Shown one piece after another: positions 45,159-51,523 of a stretch of 64,000 nt of DNA; position 1 is the stretch's first letter, and each line of letters begins with the position of its first letter. The position numbers and the translations under genes are program-made. The notes under the pieces are model-generated. The model ran no database searches. It saw only the letters and a list, made by a program, of their open reading frames with translations, and was not told the DNA's origin. The DNA is from Pseudomonas fluorescens (GTDB taxonomy: Bacteria > Pseudomonadota > Gammaproteobacteria > Pseudomonadales > Pseudomonadaceae). Location: positions 1,241,001 to 1,305,000 of the forward strand of contig NZ_CP015637.1 of NCBI RefSeq assembly GCF_001708445.1, read 5' to 3'.

Positions 45159-45797
45159 TCAATCGTCGGAGGTTTTTTCCTTGTACTCGCACAGGTCCTC
45201 GATGCGACAGCTGCCGCAGCGTGGCTTGCGCGCCTGGCAGACATAACGCCCGTGCAGGATCAGCCAATGATGCGAATCGAGCAGATAGGGCTTGGGAACA
45301 AACTTCATCAGCTGCTTTTCCACTTCCACCACGTTCTTCCCGCGTGCAATGCCGGTGCGGTTGCTGACACGAAAAATATGTGTGTCCACGGCCATTGTCA
45401 GCTGGCGAAACGCCGTATTGAGCACCACATTGGCCGTCTTGCGGCCCACGCCGGGCAGCGCTTCCAAGGCTTCGCGTGTTTGCGGTACTTCACCGCCATG
45501 CCGCTCCACCAGCAGGCGGCAGGTCTCGATGACATTCTTGGCCTTGCTGTTATACAGGCCGATGGTCTTGATGTACTCGGACAAACCCTCAACGCCCAGG
45601 GCATAAATCGCCGCGGGTGTGTTCGCCACAGGAAATAGCTTGGCCGTGGCCTTGTTGACGCCCACATCGGTCGATTGGGCCGAGAGAATCACGGCAATCA
45701 GCAACTCGAATGGCGATGAGTAGGCCAGTTCGGTCTTGGGTTCCGGATTGTCTTCGTGAAGCCTGCGAAAAATTTCCAATCGTTTTGCGGCGTTCAT
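45159..45797 (-). CDS. nth: Endonuclease III
   Basis: 212 residues. Helix-hairpin-helix LPGVGRKTANVVL with catalytic Lys, catalytic Asp in VDTHIFRVSNR and the C-terminal [4Fe-4S] site C-x6-C-x2-C-x5-C (CQARKPRCGSCRIEDLC). Bifunctional glycosylase/AP lyase for oxidised pyrimidines. Immediately downstream of the rnf genes, its usual location in gammaproteobacteria. Confidence 0.96.
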   Translation of the reverse strand: MNAAKRLEIFRRLHEDNPEPKTELAYSSPFELLIAVILSAQSTDVGVNKATAKLFPVANTPAAIYALGVEGLSEYIKTIGLYNSKAKNVIETCRLLVERHGGEVPQTREALEALPGVGRKTANVVLNTAFRQLTMAVDTHIFRVSNRTGIARGKNVVEVEKQLMKFVPKPYLLDSHHWLILHGRYVCQARKPRCGSCRIEDLCEYKEKTSDD

Positions 45798-45822: not shown

Positions 45823-46317
45823 TCAGCGTGATTTCGAGTAGTGGGCCCAGGCTTGGCACCCTGCGAGCAGTAACCCGAGCAGGATAAACCCGGCAGGCAT
45901 GAATGTGGTGGCGGTACCGGCGCGTAGCAACCCCAGCAGTATCAGCAGGGCGGCGAAAAGGCCAAACAGCCGCAGGCGTGCCTTGTGCTGGCCGGCCGCG
46001 AAGAAGCCGCCGTGTTCCAGTACTACGCATTGCACGCTGATCATGGCGAGATAGAGGCCCAGTTGCTGATAGGTCGTGAGTGCAAATGCCTGCAACAGTA
46101 ACTGCACGACACTGACCAGGGTCGCGGCCAGCATCAGGCTGGCAATCAACCGTAAGGGGGCGCTGAGGCGGGATCGCACACCTGCCATGACCAGGCCATA
46201 CAGCGTCACGACTAGCACGGACAGCCCCAGGAAACTCAGGGCCTTGGGCAGCGTGTCACTCACTCCGATCAACGGTGTCAGCATCAGCGTATTGGCCAGG
46301 CCAAAGGCTTTAGTCAT
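45823..46317 (-). CDS. rnfE: Short RnfE homologue (Rnf complex membrane subunit)
   Basis: 164 residues from ATG 46317, against ~230 for usual RnfE. It aligns through LANTLMLTPLIGVSDTLPKAL and TTYQQLGLYLAMISVQCVVLEHGGFFA; a middle segment of ~40 residues and both ends are missing. The Cys of LLGLCPLL is replaced by Thr (LMLTPLI), while the second Cys is kept (VQC). It has five or so membrane helices. It overlaps rnfG by 8 nt, and nth follows. It is a membrane partner of RnfA in the normal complex. Confidence 0.78.
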   Translation of the reverse strand: MTKAFGLANTLMLTPLIGVSDTLPKALSFLGLSVLVVTLYGLVMAGVRSRLSAPLRLIASLMLAATLVSVVQLLLQAFALTTYQQLGLYLAMISVQCVVLEHGGFFAAGQHKARLRLFGLFAALLILLGLLRAGTATTFMPAGFILLGLLLAGCQAWAHYSKSR

Positions 46318-46894
46318 GGGCCGCGTGCTCCAGCAATGCAGATCGATGTTCGTCGAAAAAACGCAGCGCATCGTGGGCGGCATTGGACACCGCGCGGGAA
46401 GTCAGGGTCGCGCCTGCCATCTGATCGAATGTCGGGTCTTTCAGGTCGCTGCGGGTGCGGCCTTTGAAGGCGGCCAGCCAAGGGTTGCCGGGCTCACTGA
46501 TATGGCCACCAAGGCTTGGGGTTTCCGAGTGCGCCAGCGGTTTGATTGCCAGCAGCTTACCGTCGCGGTCGATGGCCACCAGCAGTTCAATCGGCCCGCC
46601 GTAGCCGTTGGCTTGTAACCGCAGGATCACGGCGCTTGCCTGGCCGGCCAGGGTTGCCAAGTAGCCACCTTGAAGCTGGCTGTTTGACAGGGGTTGGGGA
46701 GCGATCGCCAGCGCCTGGTCCAAGGGCTGGTTGTCGTAGCGGTCCGCGGGTAGCAGGTCGAGTAGGGCCTGACGCTGTTGCGCCTGGGCTTGGAGCGCCA
46801 CATGGCCGGCGGTCAGGTGCTGCAGCCCCAAGGTCAAGGCGATGCCGCCCATGCTAATCAGCAGCGCCAACAGCAGGCCTCGGGTGACTCTCAT
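46310..46894 (-). CDS. rnfG: RnfG, flavin-carrying subunit
   Basis: 194 residues from ATG 46894 (overlaps rnfD by 4 nt). One N-terminal membrane anchor (VTRGLLLALLISMGGIALTLG), then an FMN-binding domain in the periplasm (LVAIDRDGKLLAIKPLAHSETPSLG) and the flavin attachment region DQMAGATLTS, with the acceptor Thr retained. RnfG passes electrons by a covalently bound FMN. Confidence 0.87.
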   Translation of the reverse strand: MRVTRGLLLALLISMGGIALTLGLQHLTAGHVALQAQAQQRQALLDLLPADRYDNQPLDQALAIAPQPLSNSQLQGGYLATLAGQASAVILRLQANGYGGPIELLVAIDRDGKLLAIKPLAHSETPSLGGHISEPGNPWLAAFKGRTRSDLKDPTFDQMAGATLTSRAVSNAAHDALRFFDEHRSALLEHAAHD

Positions 46895-47850
46895 GCATTC
46901 ACCTGCGGCTGTTTCGGTGCCACCAGGCGCTCCAGCGCGGGCACGGCCAGGTTCATCAGCAATACTGCGAAGGCTACCCCGTCCGGGTAACCGCCCCACG
47001 TGCGAATCAGATAGGTCAGCGCGCCTACGCCCGCGCCAAAGAGCAGGCGTGCCCGCGGGCTCCTGGGGCCCGACACCGGCTCGGTGATGATGAAAAAGGC
47101 GCCGAGAAGGGTGGCGCCGGTCAGCAGATGAAACAGCGGCGAGCCATGGGAATCCGAACCCGACCCGTTCCAGCACAGCAGGCTGATCACAAATAGGCTG
47201 CCCAGCATGCCAACGGGTGCATGCCAGCTGAACACGCGCTGCCATAACAGCCAGAGGCCACCCATGAGATAGGCCAGGCCGACCCACTCGCTGGCCCTGC
47301 CGCCGAAATGCCCAAATGCCGGGCTGCGCGCGAACAGCTCGTCGATGGTCAGGCTCTTGTTGATTCGCAGGGCATCCAAGGCGGTGGCCTGGGCCCAGGC
47401 ATCCGGCGCCGCGCCGTGCAGGCCCAGAACCTGATTGACGCCGGCCAGCAGGTCCAGGCCATGGGGCGCCGGCCAGTGGCTCATGGGTTGGGGAAAGGCC
47501 ACCAGCATCAGGGCGTACCCGACCATGGCCGGATTGAATGGGTTTCGATTGCCACCATACAAGTGCTTGCCCAGCAGCAACCCTCCGGTGACAGCGGCTA
47601 CACACAGCCACCATGGACAATAGGGTGGCAGGGCCAGGGCCAACAGTGTGGCGCTGACCAGGCTGCTCAGGTCACGAACGCGCCGTCCTCGCAGGCGGTC
47701 GACACCCGCGTCCACCAGTAGCGCGCATCCCCCAGCCAAGATCAAATTGATCAACACCCCCCATCCGTACCACCAGCACAGCGCCACGACGCCCGGCAGC
47801 GTTGCGAGCAACACGCGCTGCAAGGCCTGCTGCGGATCAGGCGTTGTCAT
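46891..47850 (-). CDS. rnfD: RnfD, flavin-carrying membrane subunit
   Basis: 319 residues from ATG 47850. About ten membrane helices, family motif [22 protein letters not shown] and the covalent FMN site [19 protein letters not shown]. It overlaps rnfB by 14 nt, which leaves no room for the rnfC gene that normally sits between B and D. Confidence 0.88.
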
Positions 47851-48799
47851 GGGCGTCCACCAGGCGCTGTGCCTCATCCAGCTTGCCTTGCGCCTCGGCC
47901 AATTGCTGCGGGTCGGCCTTCTGATCCTGGGCTCTCTTCAGCTCTGCGCGGCGCATGGCCAGTTGGATCTTGGCGCGCTTGAGTTCGGCGGTATTACTGG
48001 GGGCTGCAGCCTTGGGGGCGCTGTTCAACTCCAGCGCGGCAAGTGCCTGCTCTGCGGCCTCGAACTGCTGTTGCAGGACGATCAATTGCGACTGCTGCTC
48101 AAACGTCGGTGGATGCCCGAACGCCTTCAAGGATTTGTGCAGTTGGGCGCGACTCATGGCCACGCTGATTTTCGCTTGCTTGACCGCTGCCTCCCTCGCC
48201 GCCTGGGCTTTATCGACCTGCACTGGCTCCGGCGCAGCGGTGTGTCTGGTCCGGGCCAGGCGTTCGGCGATCTTGAGCGCTTCTTCCCGTCGCAGACGTG
48301 CATTGCGTTGCTCAAAGCGCCGTCGTGCACGATCACGCTTGAGGCCGCGCTGACGGCGTTGGTCTTCGTTGGTGGCGAGGCCTCCGACGATGGGTAGCGC
48401 CGTGAGCAACGGGTGCATTTCGATGCAATCGACCGGGCAGGGCGCGACGCACAGGTCACAACCCGTGCATTCGTCGATGATCACCGTGTGCATCAGCTTG
48501 GCGGCGCCGACGATGGCGTCCACCGGGCATGCCTGGATGCACTTGGTGCAACCGATGCACTCGGCTTCGCGGATATACGCAACCTGCGCGGGTGCCTCGC
48601 CCCGCGTGGCGTCCAGTTCCAGCACCGGCACTTTCAGCAACTGTGCCAGCCCGGCGATGGTTTCCTGCCCACCCGGCGGGCACTTGTTAATCGCCTCACC
48701 CTGGGCAATACCTTCGGCGTAAGGCTTGCAGCCTGGGTGGCCGCACTTGCCGCATTGAGTCTGCGGCAGCAGCGCGTCGATACGTTGAATCAGGTTCAT
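47837..48799 (-). CDS. rnfB: RnfB-like ferredoxin subunit with long helical tail and no membrane anchor
   Basis: 320 residues; usual RnfB is ~190. The N-terminal membrane helix is absent: it begins [15 protein letters not shown]. The 4Fe-4S site C16/C19/C24/C40 and the two ferredoxin clusters (C81-84-87-91 and C111-114-117-121) are intact. Residues ~140-320 form a charged, Ala/Gln/Lys-rich, probably coiled-coil tail with two similar units ([20 protein letters not shown] at 208 and [19 protein letters not shown] at 275). Overlaps rnfA by 4 nt and rnfD by 14. Confidence 0.88.
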
Positions 48800-49374
48800 G
48801 CTTTGAACATTGCGTTGAAGCCGAAGAAGGCCACTGCCATCAGCCCGACGCTGATCAGTTCGACCGGCAGGCCGCGAAAAGGCAGGGGGATGTCGTTGTC
48901 GGCGATGCGTTGGCGCAAGTCGCTGAACAGGCTCAGCACCAGCCAGAAACCGAGCCCGGCGCCCAGGCTCAATGCGGCCATGTGCACCACGCCTTTATCA
49001 TTTTGTGTCCCCATCACGACCACGGCCAGTACGCCGACGTTACCCAGCAGCAGTGGCCACAGACCGTTGGTTACCAGGGCGGGGCGCACGCGCGTCAGCA
49101 GGCTGAGCACCGGGTGGATCAACAGCGCGGTCAGCGGCAAAAACACAAATAGCCGCAGTGTCGTCAATGCGAACGGCTGCAACAGATAGTGGTCCAGCAG
49201 ATAACCCAGCACGCCGCTGAGCACCATCAATAGGGTGGTGGCGATCCCGAGCGCATGCAGCCGTTGGCGTGAGGCCAGGGCCAGCACCGGGTCGACCGCC
49301 AGCGGCATCTGCAACACGAAGTTGCTGATCAGGGCGGCGCTGACAAGGGTGAGGAACATATCGGTCATGGTCAT
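48796..49374 (-). CDS. rnfA: RnfA, membrane subunit lacking the cluster cysteines
   Basis: 192 residues (an alternative ATG at 49368 gives 190), six helices. It aligns along its length with RsxA/RnfA, for example [18 protein letters not shown] with NFVLVKFLGLCPFMGVS. The two Cys that hold the membrane [2Fe-2S] cluster in normal RnfA/RnfE are replaced (Asp in AVDPV, Val in GNVGV). First gene of the cluster. Confidence 0.83.
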
Positions 49375-49471: not shown

Positions 49472-51523
49472 TTACTTGATGCGTTGACCCGGCTTGGCGC
49501 CGCTGTCAGGGCTCAGCAGGTAGATTTCTTCGCCGCCAGGGCCAGCCGCCATCACCATGCCTTCGGAAATACCGAACTTCATTTTCCGCGGCTTGAGGTT
49601 GGCGATCATCATGGTCAGGCGACCATTGAGCTTGGAGGGGTCCGGATAGGCGCTCTTGATCCCGGAGAACACGTTGCGTTGCTCGTCACCGATATCCAAG
49701 GTCAGGCGCAGCAGCTTGTCGGCACCTTCAACGGCTTCGGCCTTGACGATCAGCGCAACGCGCAGGTCCACGGCGGCAAAGGCGTCGAACTCGATCTCCG
49801 GGGAGAGGGGGTCCTTGGCCAGTTCACCGTTGCCCGCTGGCGTCGATTCGCCGGTATCGGTCTGGCTGGCGACCAGGTCTTCTTTCGAAGCGTCGGTCAT
49901 GGCCTGGACTTTTACCGGGTCGATGCGGGTCATCAGTGGCTTGAACTCGTTCAGCGGGTGGTTGCCGAGCAGGGTGGCGTGGTCATTCCAGGTCAGCGGC
50001 GCGACGTTGAGGAACGCCTCGGCGTCGGCGGCCAGCAATGGCAGCACGGGCTTGAGGAAGATCACCAACTGGCGGAACAGGTTGACGCCGGTGGCGCAGA
50101 TCGCCTGGACTTCAGCCTGCTTGCCTTCCTGCTTGTTCAGCGACCACGGTGCCTTGTCGGCGATCCAGGCGTTGGCACGGTCGGCCAGGCCCATGATCTC
50201 GCGCATCGCGCGGGCAAAGTCGCGGGCCTCATAGGCATCGGCAATGCTTGGCGCGGCGGCCAGGAAGGCCTCGGTCAGTTCCGGCGCGGCATTTTCCGCC
50301 ACCATCACACCGGCGTTGCCCTTGTGGATGAACCCGGCGCAACGGCTGGCGATGTTGACGACTTTGCCCACCAGGTCGGAGTTGACCTTCTGTACGAAGT
50401 CTTCCAGGTTCAGGTCGAGGTCGTCGACGCCACGGCCCAGCTTGGAGGCGTAGTAGTAGCGCAGGTATTCCGGCGACAGGTGGTCCAGGTAGGTGCGCGC
50501 CTTGATAAAGGTGCCACGGGACTTGGACATCTTCTGGCCATTGACCGTCAGGTAACCGTGTACGGCGATGCCGGTTGGCTTGCGGTAGCCCGAACCTTCG
50601 AGCATGGCTGGCCAGAACAGGGCGTGGAAGTTGACGATGTCCTTGCCGATGAAGTGGTACAGCTCGGCGGTGGAGTCCTTGCCCCAGAAAGCGTCGAAGT
50701 CCAGCTCCGGCGTGCGGGCGCAGAGGTTCTTGAAGCTGGCCATGTAGCCGATCGGCGCGTCCAGCCACACGTAGAAGTACTTGCCTGGCTCGTCGGGGAT
50801 TTCGAAGCCGAAGTACGGCGCATCGCGGGAGATGTCCCACTGTTGCAGGCCGGCGTCCAGCCATTCGGCGATCTTGTTCGCCACGGCGTCCTGCAGGGTG
50901 CCGCTGCGGGTCCAGGTTTGCAGCATCTGCTGGAAATCCGGGAGCTTGAAGAAGAAGTGCTGGGAATCCTTGAGCACCGGGATGGCGCCGGAGATAGCCG
51001 AACGCGGGTTCTTCAGGTCAGTCGGTGCGTAGGTGGCACCGCATTTTTCGCAGTTGTCGCCGTACTGGTCTTCGGTGCCGCATTTTGGGCAGGTGCCCTT
51101 GATGAAGCGGTCGGCCAGGAACATTTTCTTTTCCGGGTCGAAATACTGCGTGATCGAACGCGTGGCAATGTGCCCGGCGTCGCGCAAGCGCTTATAGATC
51201 TGGCTCGACAGCTCGCGGTTTTCGTCGGAGTGGGTCGAGTGGAAGTTGTCGAAGTCCACCAGGAAGTCGGCAAAGTCGGCGCTGTGTTCAGCCTGCACAT
51301 TGGCGATCAGTTGTTCCGGGGTGATCCCTTCCTTTTCGGCGCGCAACATGATGGCCGAGCCGTGGGCGTCGTCCGCGCAGACATAGATGCATTGATTGCC
51401 GCGATGCTTCTGGAAGCGCACCCACATATCGGTCTGGATGTACTCAAGCATATGGCCAAGATGGATGGAACCATTGGCATAGGGCAGGGCGCTGGTGACG
51501 AGGATCTTGCGTGGCTCGGACAT
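49472..51523 (-). CDS. metG: Methionyl-tRNA synthetase
   Basis: 683 residues. Class I: HLGH (in [12 protein letters not shown]), KMSKS ([11 protein letters not shown]), zinc knuckle CPKC...CEKC (~145-165), and a C-terminal EMAP-type tRNA-binding domain ([21 protein letters not shown]). Divergent from apbC, as in other pseudomonads. Confidence 0.97.

Follow-up and report, generated by a model that had tools for sequence, protein, structure and literature searches.

The window studied here, a stretch of 64,000 nucleotides (nt) of Pseudomonas fluorescens DNA (contig NZ_CP015637.1, positions 1,241,001 to 1,305,000), carries on its minus strand a cluster of five genes, rnfA, rnfB, rnfD, rnfG and rnfE in that order, bracketed by two neighbours that we ourselves assigned as metG and nth. 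The cluster is related to the genes of the Rnf redox complex and has no rnfC. It is in our opinion very nearly an even call that this operon encodes two redox modules derived from an ancestral RnfABCDGE: a membrane relay of RnfA, RnfD, RnfG and RnfE (ADGE) that would work with flavins only, and a soluble ferredoxin-type RnfB, here called RnfB* or B*, that would have a job of its own. A broader proposal, to which we give somewhat less credence, is that an ancestral ion pump split into two independent devices, namely a non-pumping, flavin-only wire RnfADGE that needs neither nicotinamide adenine dinucleotide (NAD(H)) nor iron-sulfur (Fe-S) clusters within itself, and a soluble RnfB-RnfC-tail ferredoxin that serves another function, and that lineages keep either, both or neither of them.

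RnfC is the subunit that carries the NAD(H) site, flavin mononucleotide (FMN) and two Fe-S clusters. An earlier reading of the window from its letters alone (the sequence-only reading) had claimed that the gene is missing, that the five genes overlap end to end with rnfD starting inside rnfB, and that the usual exchange of electrons with NADH is consequently impossible; it had also proposed a search of the whole genome. The frame coordinates confirm the overlaps, which measure 4, 14, 4 and 8 nt for successive genes, the start of rnfD lying within rnfB, and therefore leave no space for an additional gene between them. In the complete genome (a single 6.64 Mb contig, completeness 100%) rnfC was not found: the PF13375 and TIGR01945 profiles yielded only partial stretches below their cut-offs, and a hidden rnfC was rejected on this basis. 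The best place for PF13375 scored 21.6 bits against a cut-off of 25.6, in a frame that, by eye, looks like a biotin carrier adjoining a biotin carboxylase; TIGR01945 matched nine places, the best reaching 57 bits where the cut-off is 246 and spanning only positions 110-222 of the profile, and this partial match we take for NuoF. That no rnfC was found in the genome supports the claim about NADH as well.

The same deficiency was followed through the genus in a survey of 249 genomes, 36 of which have TIGR01945 (RnfC) matches and 175 of which have TIGR01946 (RnfD) matches over cut-off; four genomes with RnfD matches below cut-off, which are probably NqrB, were removed. In 139 Pseudomonas genomes RnfD occurs without an RnfC match at E 1e-20. 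From among the matches listed we assembled 77 RnfC-less loci, which with the window make 78 (65 with RnfB and 13 without), and compared them with 13 complete clusters (L137-L149), for a total of 91 clusters, as well as with two distant complete clusters (L127, L128) and eight loci with RnfC-like and RnfD-like proteins. The RnfE of the window, used as query, found RnfE in 60 of the 65 and 7 of the 13 RnfC-less loci, and the remaining 11 were found with the RnfE of relatives. MetG and Nth bracket the RnfC-less loci in 65/65 and 13/13 cases (complete loci: MetG 12/13, Nth 13/13). The best 80 loci from named genomes retrieved with an RnfA query, all from Pseudomonas and including marginalis, veronii, protegens, chlororaphis, brassicacearum, jessenii, viridiflava and strain FW300-N2E3, are ordered MetG-A-B-D-G-E-Nth in 80/80 cases, and the arrangement is therefore not due to chance; these loci are not independent of the fetched clusters (L193, for one, is on a contig as long as that of L121). 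In a tree that includes complete Rnf clusters, the RnfC-less ones form one clade (20 of 64 rows used; support 100/99) with a long stem. We consider it extremely improbable that exchange with NADH is restored by an NADH subunit that has escaped recognition, is encoded at another place and docks on RnfD: the flavin sites of RnfD are kept, and some genomes do pair an RnfC-like with an RnfD-like protein, but the RnfC matches of the window genome are weak partial stretches, the riboflavin site is changed, and the 139 genomes just mentioned have RnfD and no RnfC match.

Losses extend to the membrane core. According to an excerpt of a cryo-electron microscopy study of the Acetobacterium woodii complex (PMC11889175), a [2Fe-2S] cluster in the membrane is held by C25 and C113 of RnfA and C25 and C108 of RnfE, and mutation of these ligands, or of the riboflavin residues N123 and D249 of RnfD, abolishes activity. 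All four cysteines are present in 13/13 complete clusters; only one of the four (Cys97 of RnfE in the window) is kept in the RnfC-less form. Neither RnfA position is Cys in any of the 78 RnfC-less clusters. Where RnfB is present, the C25 site is nearly invariant as Asp (61 of 65, with Ala in 2 and a gap in 2), and the C113 site is Ala in 59, Val in 3 and Gly in 3; where RnfB is absent, the Asp has gone together with the whole segment in 11 of 13 clusters, the other two having Asp, and the C113 site is Ala in 10 and Val in 3. In RnfE, C25 is Cys in 0/67 aligned RnfC-less sequences (0/60 with RnfB, 0/7 without), while C108 is kept in 67/67 (60/60 and 7/7); the 11 sequences outside the alignment, inspected by eye, have no Cys at C25 and have C108 in all but one (L113). 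The 80 named loci give the same picture, with position 28 of RnfA Asp in 79 and Asn in 1, position 113 Ala in 79 and Val in 1, C108 of RnfE in 80, and C25 of RnfE never Cys in the 76 that are readable. Beyond the genus, an RnfA relative was found in 274 of 293 genomes of the order; 27 of the best 30 of these loci lie outside Pseudomonas and carry the two cysteines in every case, and the Asp form occurs only in the three Pseudomonas loci, window included.

The flavin sites are preserved, with one systematic change. N123 of RnfD is conserved in 91/91 clusters, and the positions equivalent to the FMN-bearing residues given for Clostridium tetanomorphum in an excerpt of PMC9588780 (RnfD T153, RnfG T164) are Thr/Ser in 91/91, the Thr of RnfD having been located by motif. 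The D249 site of RnfD is Glu in 78/78 RnfC-less clusters, including all 13 without RnfB; it is Asp in 13/13 complete clusters, in 30/30 RnfD loci of RnfC-bearing genomes (a set that overlaps the 13), in L127 and L128, and in the eight RnfC-like/RnfD-like loci. In the 80 named loci, RnfD has the Glu and the Asn in 80 and 80, and both FMN residues are Thr in 80 and 80. RnfG has an FMN_bind domain and the covalent-FMN motif, as a flavinylated partner of the RnfG type would.

Taken together, these sites outline how the membrane module might work. It would hold flavins only (RnfD with riboflavin and an FMN, RnfG with an FMN), both FMNs being attached by the flavin transferase ApbE, and by way of RnfD and RnfG electrons would most likely pass between a periplasmic partner and a donor that is either cytoplasmic or a quinol; the occupancy of the sites and the path, direction, donor and acceptor of the electrons are what we infer from the residues kept. 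With RnfC and the [2Fe-2S] site lost, the leg from ferredoxin to RnfG cannot run as proposed for known Rnf, nor, with that site lost, can ion pumping gated by the cluster. On the model excerpted from PMC11889175, in which pumping is assigned to RnfA/E and gated by the [2Fe-2S] cluster, pumping is therefore unlikely here; this model is contested by PMC12174285 and PMC9588780, excerpts of which locate the sodium path in NqrB/RnfD.

The second module is RnfB*. Its N-terminus is the start of the Fe-S domain and, unlike the RnfB of complete clusters, it lacks a membrane helix; about 175 additional residues are present at its C-terminus, close to the ~180 claimed in the sequence-only reading. The suggestion that this tail is a remnant of the C-terminus of RnfC has likewise held up. 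The RnfC proteins of complete Pseudomonas clusters (749-965 amino acids (aa); a motif located 12 of the 13 frames) have a long repeat tail past their catalytic part, and the 65 RnfB tails match these RnfC tails with a median of 74.3 bits (minimum 24.6, window 65.1), as compared with maxima of 25.0, 39.3 and 29.3 bits for residue-shuffled, heptad-shuffled and reversed decoys. All 65 tails beat their own decoys of each kind, and 64 beat every decoy; an artefact of composition was on this account rejected as the source of the likeness. As an example, the RnfB tail of L080 is 52% identical to the RnfC of L146 over 189 residues, up to the final residue of RnfC; for the window the figure is 45% over 92 residues. 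The NCBI RsxC model also matches RnfB* weakly (residues 77-290, 25.1 bits), far below cut-off and partly across the Fe-S domain. On these alignments the tail is the C-terminal helical repeat of RnfC, and B* an RnfB-RnfC-tail fusion; the simplest history is one in which the body of RnfC was lost, its tail was fused to RnfB, and RnfB lost its N-terminal helix. A structure model, useful for the tail only because its quality across the Fe-S domain is low (mean predicted local distance difference test score 64.8), renders the tail as one long helix and two confident helical hairpins. Thirteen aligned RnfB cysteines are conserved in 65/65 RnfC-less clusters with RnfB, and many relatives have a longer RnfB than the 320 aa of the window, up to 408 aa.

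Orphan RnfB proteins were also seen in other families of the order or class: at L298, L300, L301, L302, L304 and L305 RnfB and nth lie in the stretch and no other rnf gene was found there, with metG present as well at L298, L302, L304 and L305. Their tails are short, some with a weaker likeness to that of RnfB* (at most 38.5 bits), and for this reason the fusion may or may not have arisen within Pseudomonas. The orphan RnfB of L300 seems to combine an N-terminal membrane helix with a tail.

That the two modules are separable is apparent from the contents of the metG-nth site, which are A-B-C-D-G-E, A-B*-D-G-E, A-D-G-E, or B* alone. ADGE stands without RnfB at 13 loci, and none of these 13 genomes has an RnfB match over cut-off elsewhere; relocation of RnfB was rejected on this count, and 12 of the 13 show weaker ferredoxin-type matches of at most 49.8 bits. 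Conversely, 25 of the 70 RnfD-negative genomes were tested (20 among the matches listed and 5 from the ApbE-negative list): 21 have RnfB over cut-off, and 4 match neither RnfB nor RnfD. The best-scoring 12 of the RnfD-less loci are all metG-rnfB*-nth with an RnfC-like tail (39-82 bits). Since B* occurs alone in 12/12 of these loci and ADGE without RnfB in 13, neither module needs the other. At L306 the open rnfB* is flanked by clear scars: of rnfA about 100 nt at the 5' end and 20 nt at the 3' end are left, and of rnfE about the terminal 70 nt; L309 retains about the last 100 nt of rnfE, L310-L313 have edge matches only (up to ~30 nt), and the remaining B*-only loci have no clear ones. Such deletions, to either side of an rnfB* that is left intact, suggest that B* is retained in its own right. 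On the RnfD tree the RnfB-less label requires 3 changes, 3 of them forced by well-supported branches, and RnfB was probably lost more than once; the B*-only label requires 5 changes (3 forced) on the Nth tree and 8 (1 forced) on the RnfB tree, both trees being weakly resolved.

These distributions bear on an unlikely alternative, in which B* would occupy the seat of RnfC by means of the RnfC tail, and its Fe-S clusters would feed the riboflavin of RnfD and then RnfG, making one outward arm of a five-subunit complex. B* does bear RnfC's own tail and lacks the anchor found in complete-cluster RnfB, its 13 aligned cysteines are kept throughout, rnfB* overlaps both rnfA and rnfD, and the riboflavin site of RnfD is altered wherever RnfC is absent; but the Glu change is present in the 13 clusters without RnfB too, and the modules are found apart at those 13 loci and in 21 of the 25 genomes. 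For similar reasons the idea that a new partner bound by the tail must feed the complex finds no support: the tail is old RnfC sequence, and the modules occur apart. In the two-module reading, B* would be a soluble ferredoxin-type protein with the RnfC helical tail and a separate job, and it may also feed RnfD.

Selection was assessed from the ratio of nonsynonymous to synonymous substitution rates (dN/dS) in random pairs, at most 250 for each gene, of which those with dS 0.05-1.5 were retained. The medians for RnfC-less clusters with RnfB are 0.228 (A), 0.121 (B), 0.151 (D), 0.208 (G) and 0.314 (E); for RnfB-less clusters 0.324 (A), 0.189 (D), 0.257 (G) and 0.436 (E); and for complete clusters 0.042 (A), 0.055 (B), 0.134 (D), 0.288 (G) and 0.133 (E). 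Thus RnfD and RnfG look as constrained as in complete clusters, and RnfA, RnfE and RnfB look relaxed, in a comparison that is rough because the groups cover different dS ranges (medians 0.77-1.17 vs 0.38-0.57). ApbE is found in 179/179 genomes that match RnfD or NqrB, in 139/139 RnfC-less ones and in 14/70 RnfD-negative ones, counts that ignore shared ancestry. We judge it quite unlikely that the cluster is a decaying remnant without electron transfer. Compared with complete clusters, RnfA and RnfE change more quickly, RnfE most of all in the RnfB-less ones, and parts of the cluster or the whole of it are missing in relatives, with deletion scars at L306; but the A, D, G and E frames are open in 78/78 RnfC-less loci, gene order is identical in the 80 named loci, the median ratios of 0.12-0.31 with RnfB and 0.19-0.44 without it show purifying selection, the flavin residues are fixed in 91/91 clusters, and ApbE accompanies every RnfC-less RnfD. 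The sequence-only reading had named two refutations. The first, an rnfC elsewhere in the genome, was not found; of the second, decay in close relatives, the loss of A, D, G and E near the window and the faster RnfA and RnfE are real, while the genes that are present stay open with dN/dS below 1.

A very unlikely alternative is that the cluster is a SoxR-reducing system, with another subunit in place of RsxC. In an excerpt of PMC11729352 the Escherichia coli system comprises Rsx, RseC and ApbE, and SoxR and ApbE matches are both present in the window genome; but the presence of SoxR tracks neither module. SoxR is over cut-off in 4/4 genomes with neither module (one with an internal stop), in 11/21 with RnfB and without RnfD, in 12/13 with ADGE only, in 10/13 with AB*DGE besides the window's own (one with an internal stop), and in 3/10 with RnfC; plain co-occurrence with SoxR was rejected, as these counts follow neither B* nor ADGE.

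Several points weigh against the two-module reading, in addition to the unequal dS ranges and the shared ancestry behind the ApbE counts. RnfD, in excerpts of PMC12174285 and PMC9588780 the subunit of the sodium path, is kept here. C108 is retained throughout the aligned RnfE, hinting at a surviving role, and either this Cys or the Asp of RnfA could still bind metal. RnfA and RnfE are present in 78/78 ADGE loci, and so are maybe more than a scaffold. Constraint is weaker in the RnfB-less clusters, where 38% of 21 RnfE pairs exceed 0.5. Finally, ADGE is absent from relatives close to the window, and is therefore dispensable in them.

The coordinates of the cluster and its sites are collected in the table. 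All five proteins are placed by Pfam, with the RnfA, D, G and E core over cut-off. The NCBIfam TIGR models accept RnfB, RnfD and RnfG, and leave RnfA (TIGR01943, 110 bits of 229) and RnfE (TIGR01948, 50 bits of 213) far under their cut-offs. In Pfam terms RnfD contains NQR2_RnfD_RnfE alone, with no fusion to an NAD-binding domain.

Table. Features of the rnf cluster and its neighbours (positions within the window; site numbering of ligands after Acetobacterium woodii).
Feature	Position	Strand	Remarks
rnfA	48796..49374	-	Rnf-Nqr family, 192 aa; neither [2Fe-2S] cysteine retained
RnfA Asp28, at ligand Cys25 site	49291..49293	-	
RnfA Val113, at ligand Cys113 site	49036..49038	-	
rnfB* (RnfB-RnfC-tail fusion)	47837..48799	-	320 aa; membrane anchor absent; Fe-S cysteines kept
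RnfC-derived helical tail of RnfB*	47840..48346	-	residues ~152-320; 65.1 bits to RnfC tails vs best decoy 27.7
rnfD	46891..47850	-	319 aa, flavin membrane subunit
RnfD Glu257, at riboflavin-site Asp (D249)	47080..47082	-	
RnfD Thr156, predicted covalent-FMN residue	47383..47385	-	
rnfG	46310..46894	-	194 aa, FMN-binding subunit
RnfG Thr163 in AGATLTS, predicted covalent-FMN residue	46406..46408	-	
rnfE	45823..46317	-	164 aa, shortened; 1 of 2 [2Fe-2S] cysteines kept (Cys97, 46027-46029)
nth (endonuclease III), conserved downstream neighbour	45159..45797	-	
metG (methionyl-tRNA synthetase), conserved upstream neighbour	49472..51523	-	

Two further kinds of locus were encountered. In eight Pseudomonas genomes (L129-L136) a separate RnfC match, in open frames of 480-594 aa, accompanies an RnfD-like protein, and BLAST found no RnfA, RnfG or RnfE there; the riboflavin Asn and Asp are present in 8/8 of these RnfD-like proteins and the FMN Thr is replaced (Val in 6, gap in 2). 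At L131 the frame of an ApbE-like lipoprotein lies beside the pair. L127 and L128 represent, in two genomes, a second, distant complete Rnf cluster with no metG or nth in the stretch, which we take to be perhaps of the nitrogen-fixation type.

The Rnf complex is a redox pump of ancient origin, and its ion transport has been proposed, though this is disputed, to be driven by the buried [2Fe-2S] cluster. A naturally occurring form seemingly devoid of both this cluster and the NADH subunit, with its flavin path under selection, would show which of the parts are able to work alone, would offer a native test of the [2Fe-2S] pumping model, and, if the reading is true, possibly represents a new route for electrons across the bacterial membrane. 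It also suggests that ferredoxin:NAD+ activity cannot safely be assumed from the annotation of RsxA, B, D, G and E alone. In the open-access literature that was searched we found no account of an RnfC-less Rnf variant.

Solved homologues in the PDB are 9eri, 7zc6 and 8ahx, which we take to be those of A. woodii, C. tetanomorphum and Azotobacter vinelandii. Compared with canonical RnfABCDGE, as found in the complete Pseudomonas clusters, the window cluster has in common the metG-nth locus, a homologous membrane core, the Fe-S domain of RnfB, and the covalent-FMN and riboflavin-Asn positions; it differs in that the body of RnfC is gone, the RnfC tail sits on an unanchored RnfB, the [2Fe-2S] ligands are lost, the riboflavin-site Asp is Glu, and RnfE is shortened. 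Because RnfC and the [2Fe-2S] ligands are missing while the homologous core is kept, we call it an Rnf-derived variant and not Rnf by definition. The Na+-translocating NADH:quinone oxidoreductase (NQR) also has a homologous core, and the flavins of its NqrB and NqrC are a model for electron exchange with quinone; the window cluster has no NqrA or NqrF. NQR itself, in the excerpt of PMC11889175, has a membrane [2Fe-2S] site. The RsxABCDGE operon of E. coli, which reduces SoxR, is homologous and is reported in the excerpt of PMC11729352 to work with ApbE; it contains RsxC, whereas here the equivalent is missing and SoxR does not track the modules. The closest parallel in logic is with the NQR/RNF-like single-arm systems (Meheust et al. 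2021, PMC8238504; PMC10979944), which, as excerpted, consist of a partial RnfD/RnfG arm thought to pass electrons one way, outward, in which RnfD is fused to an NAD-binding domain, its FMN site is unconserved and the described subunits number only two; the window cluster has no NAD domain, and the FMN site of RnfD is kept together with RnfA and RnfE, so that the two are alike in logic and not in parts.

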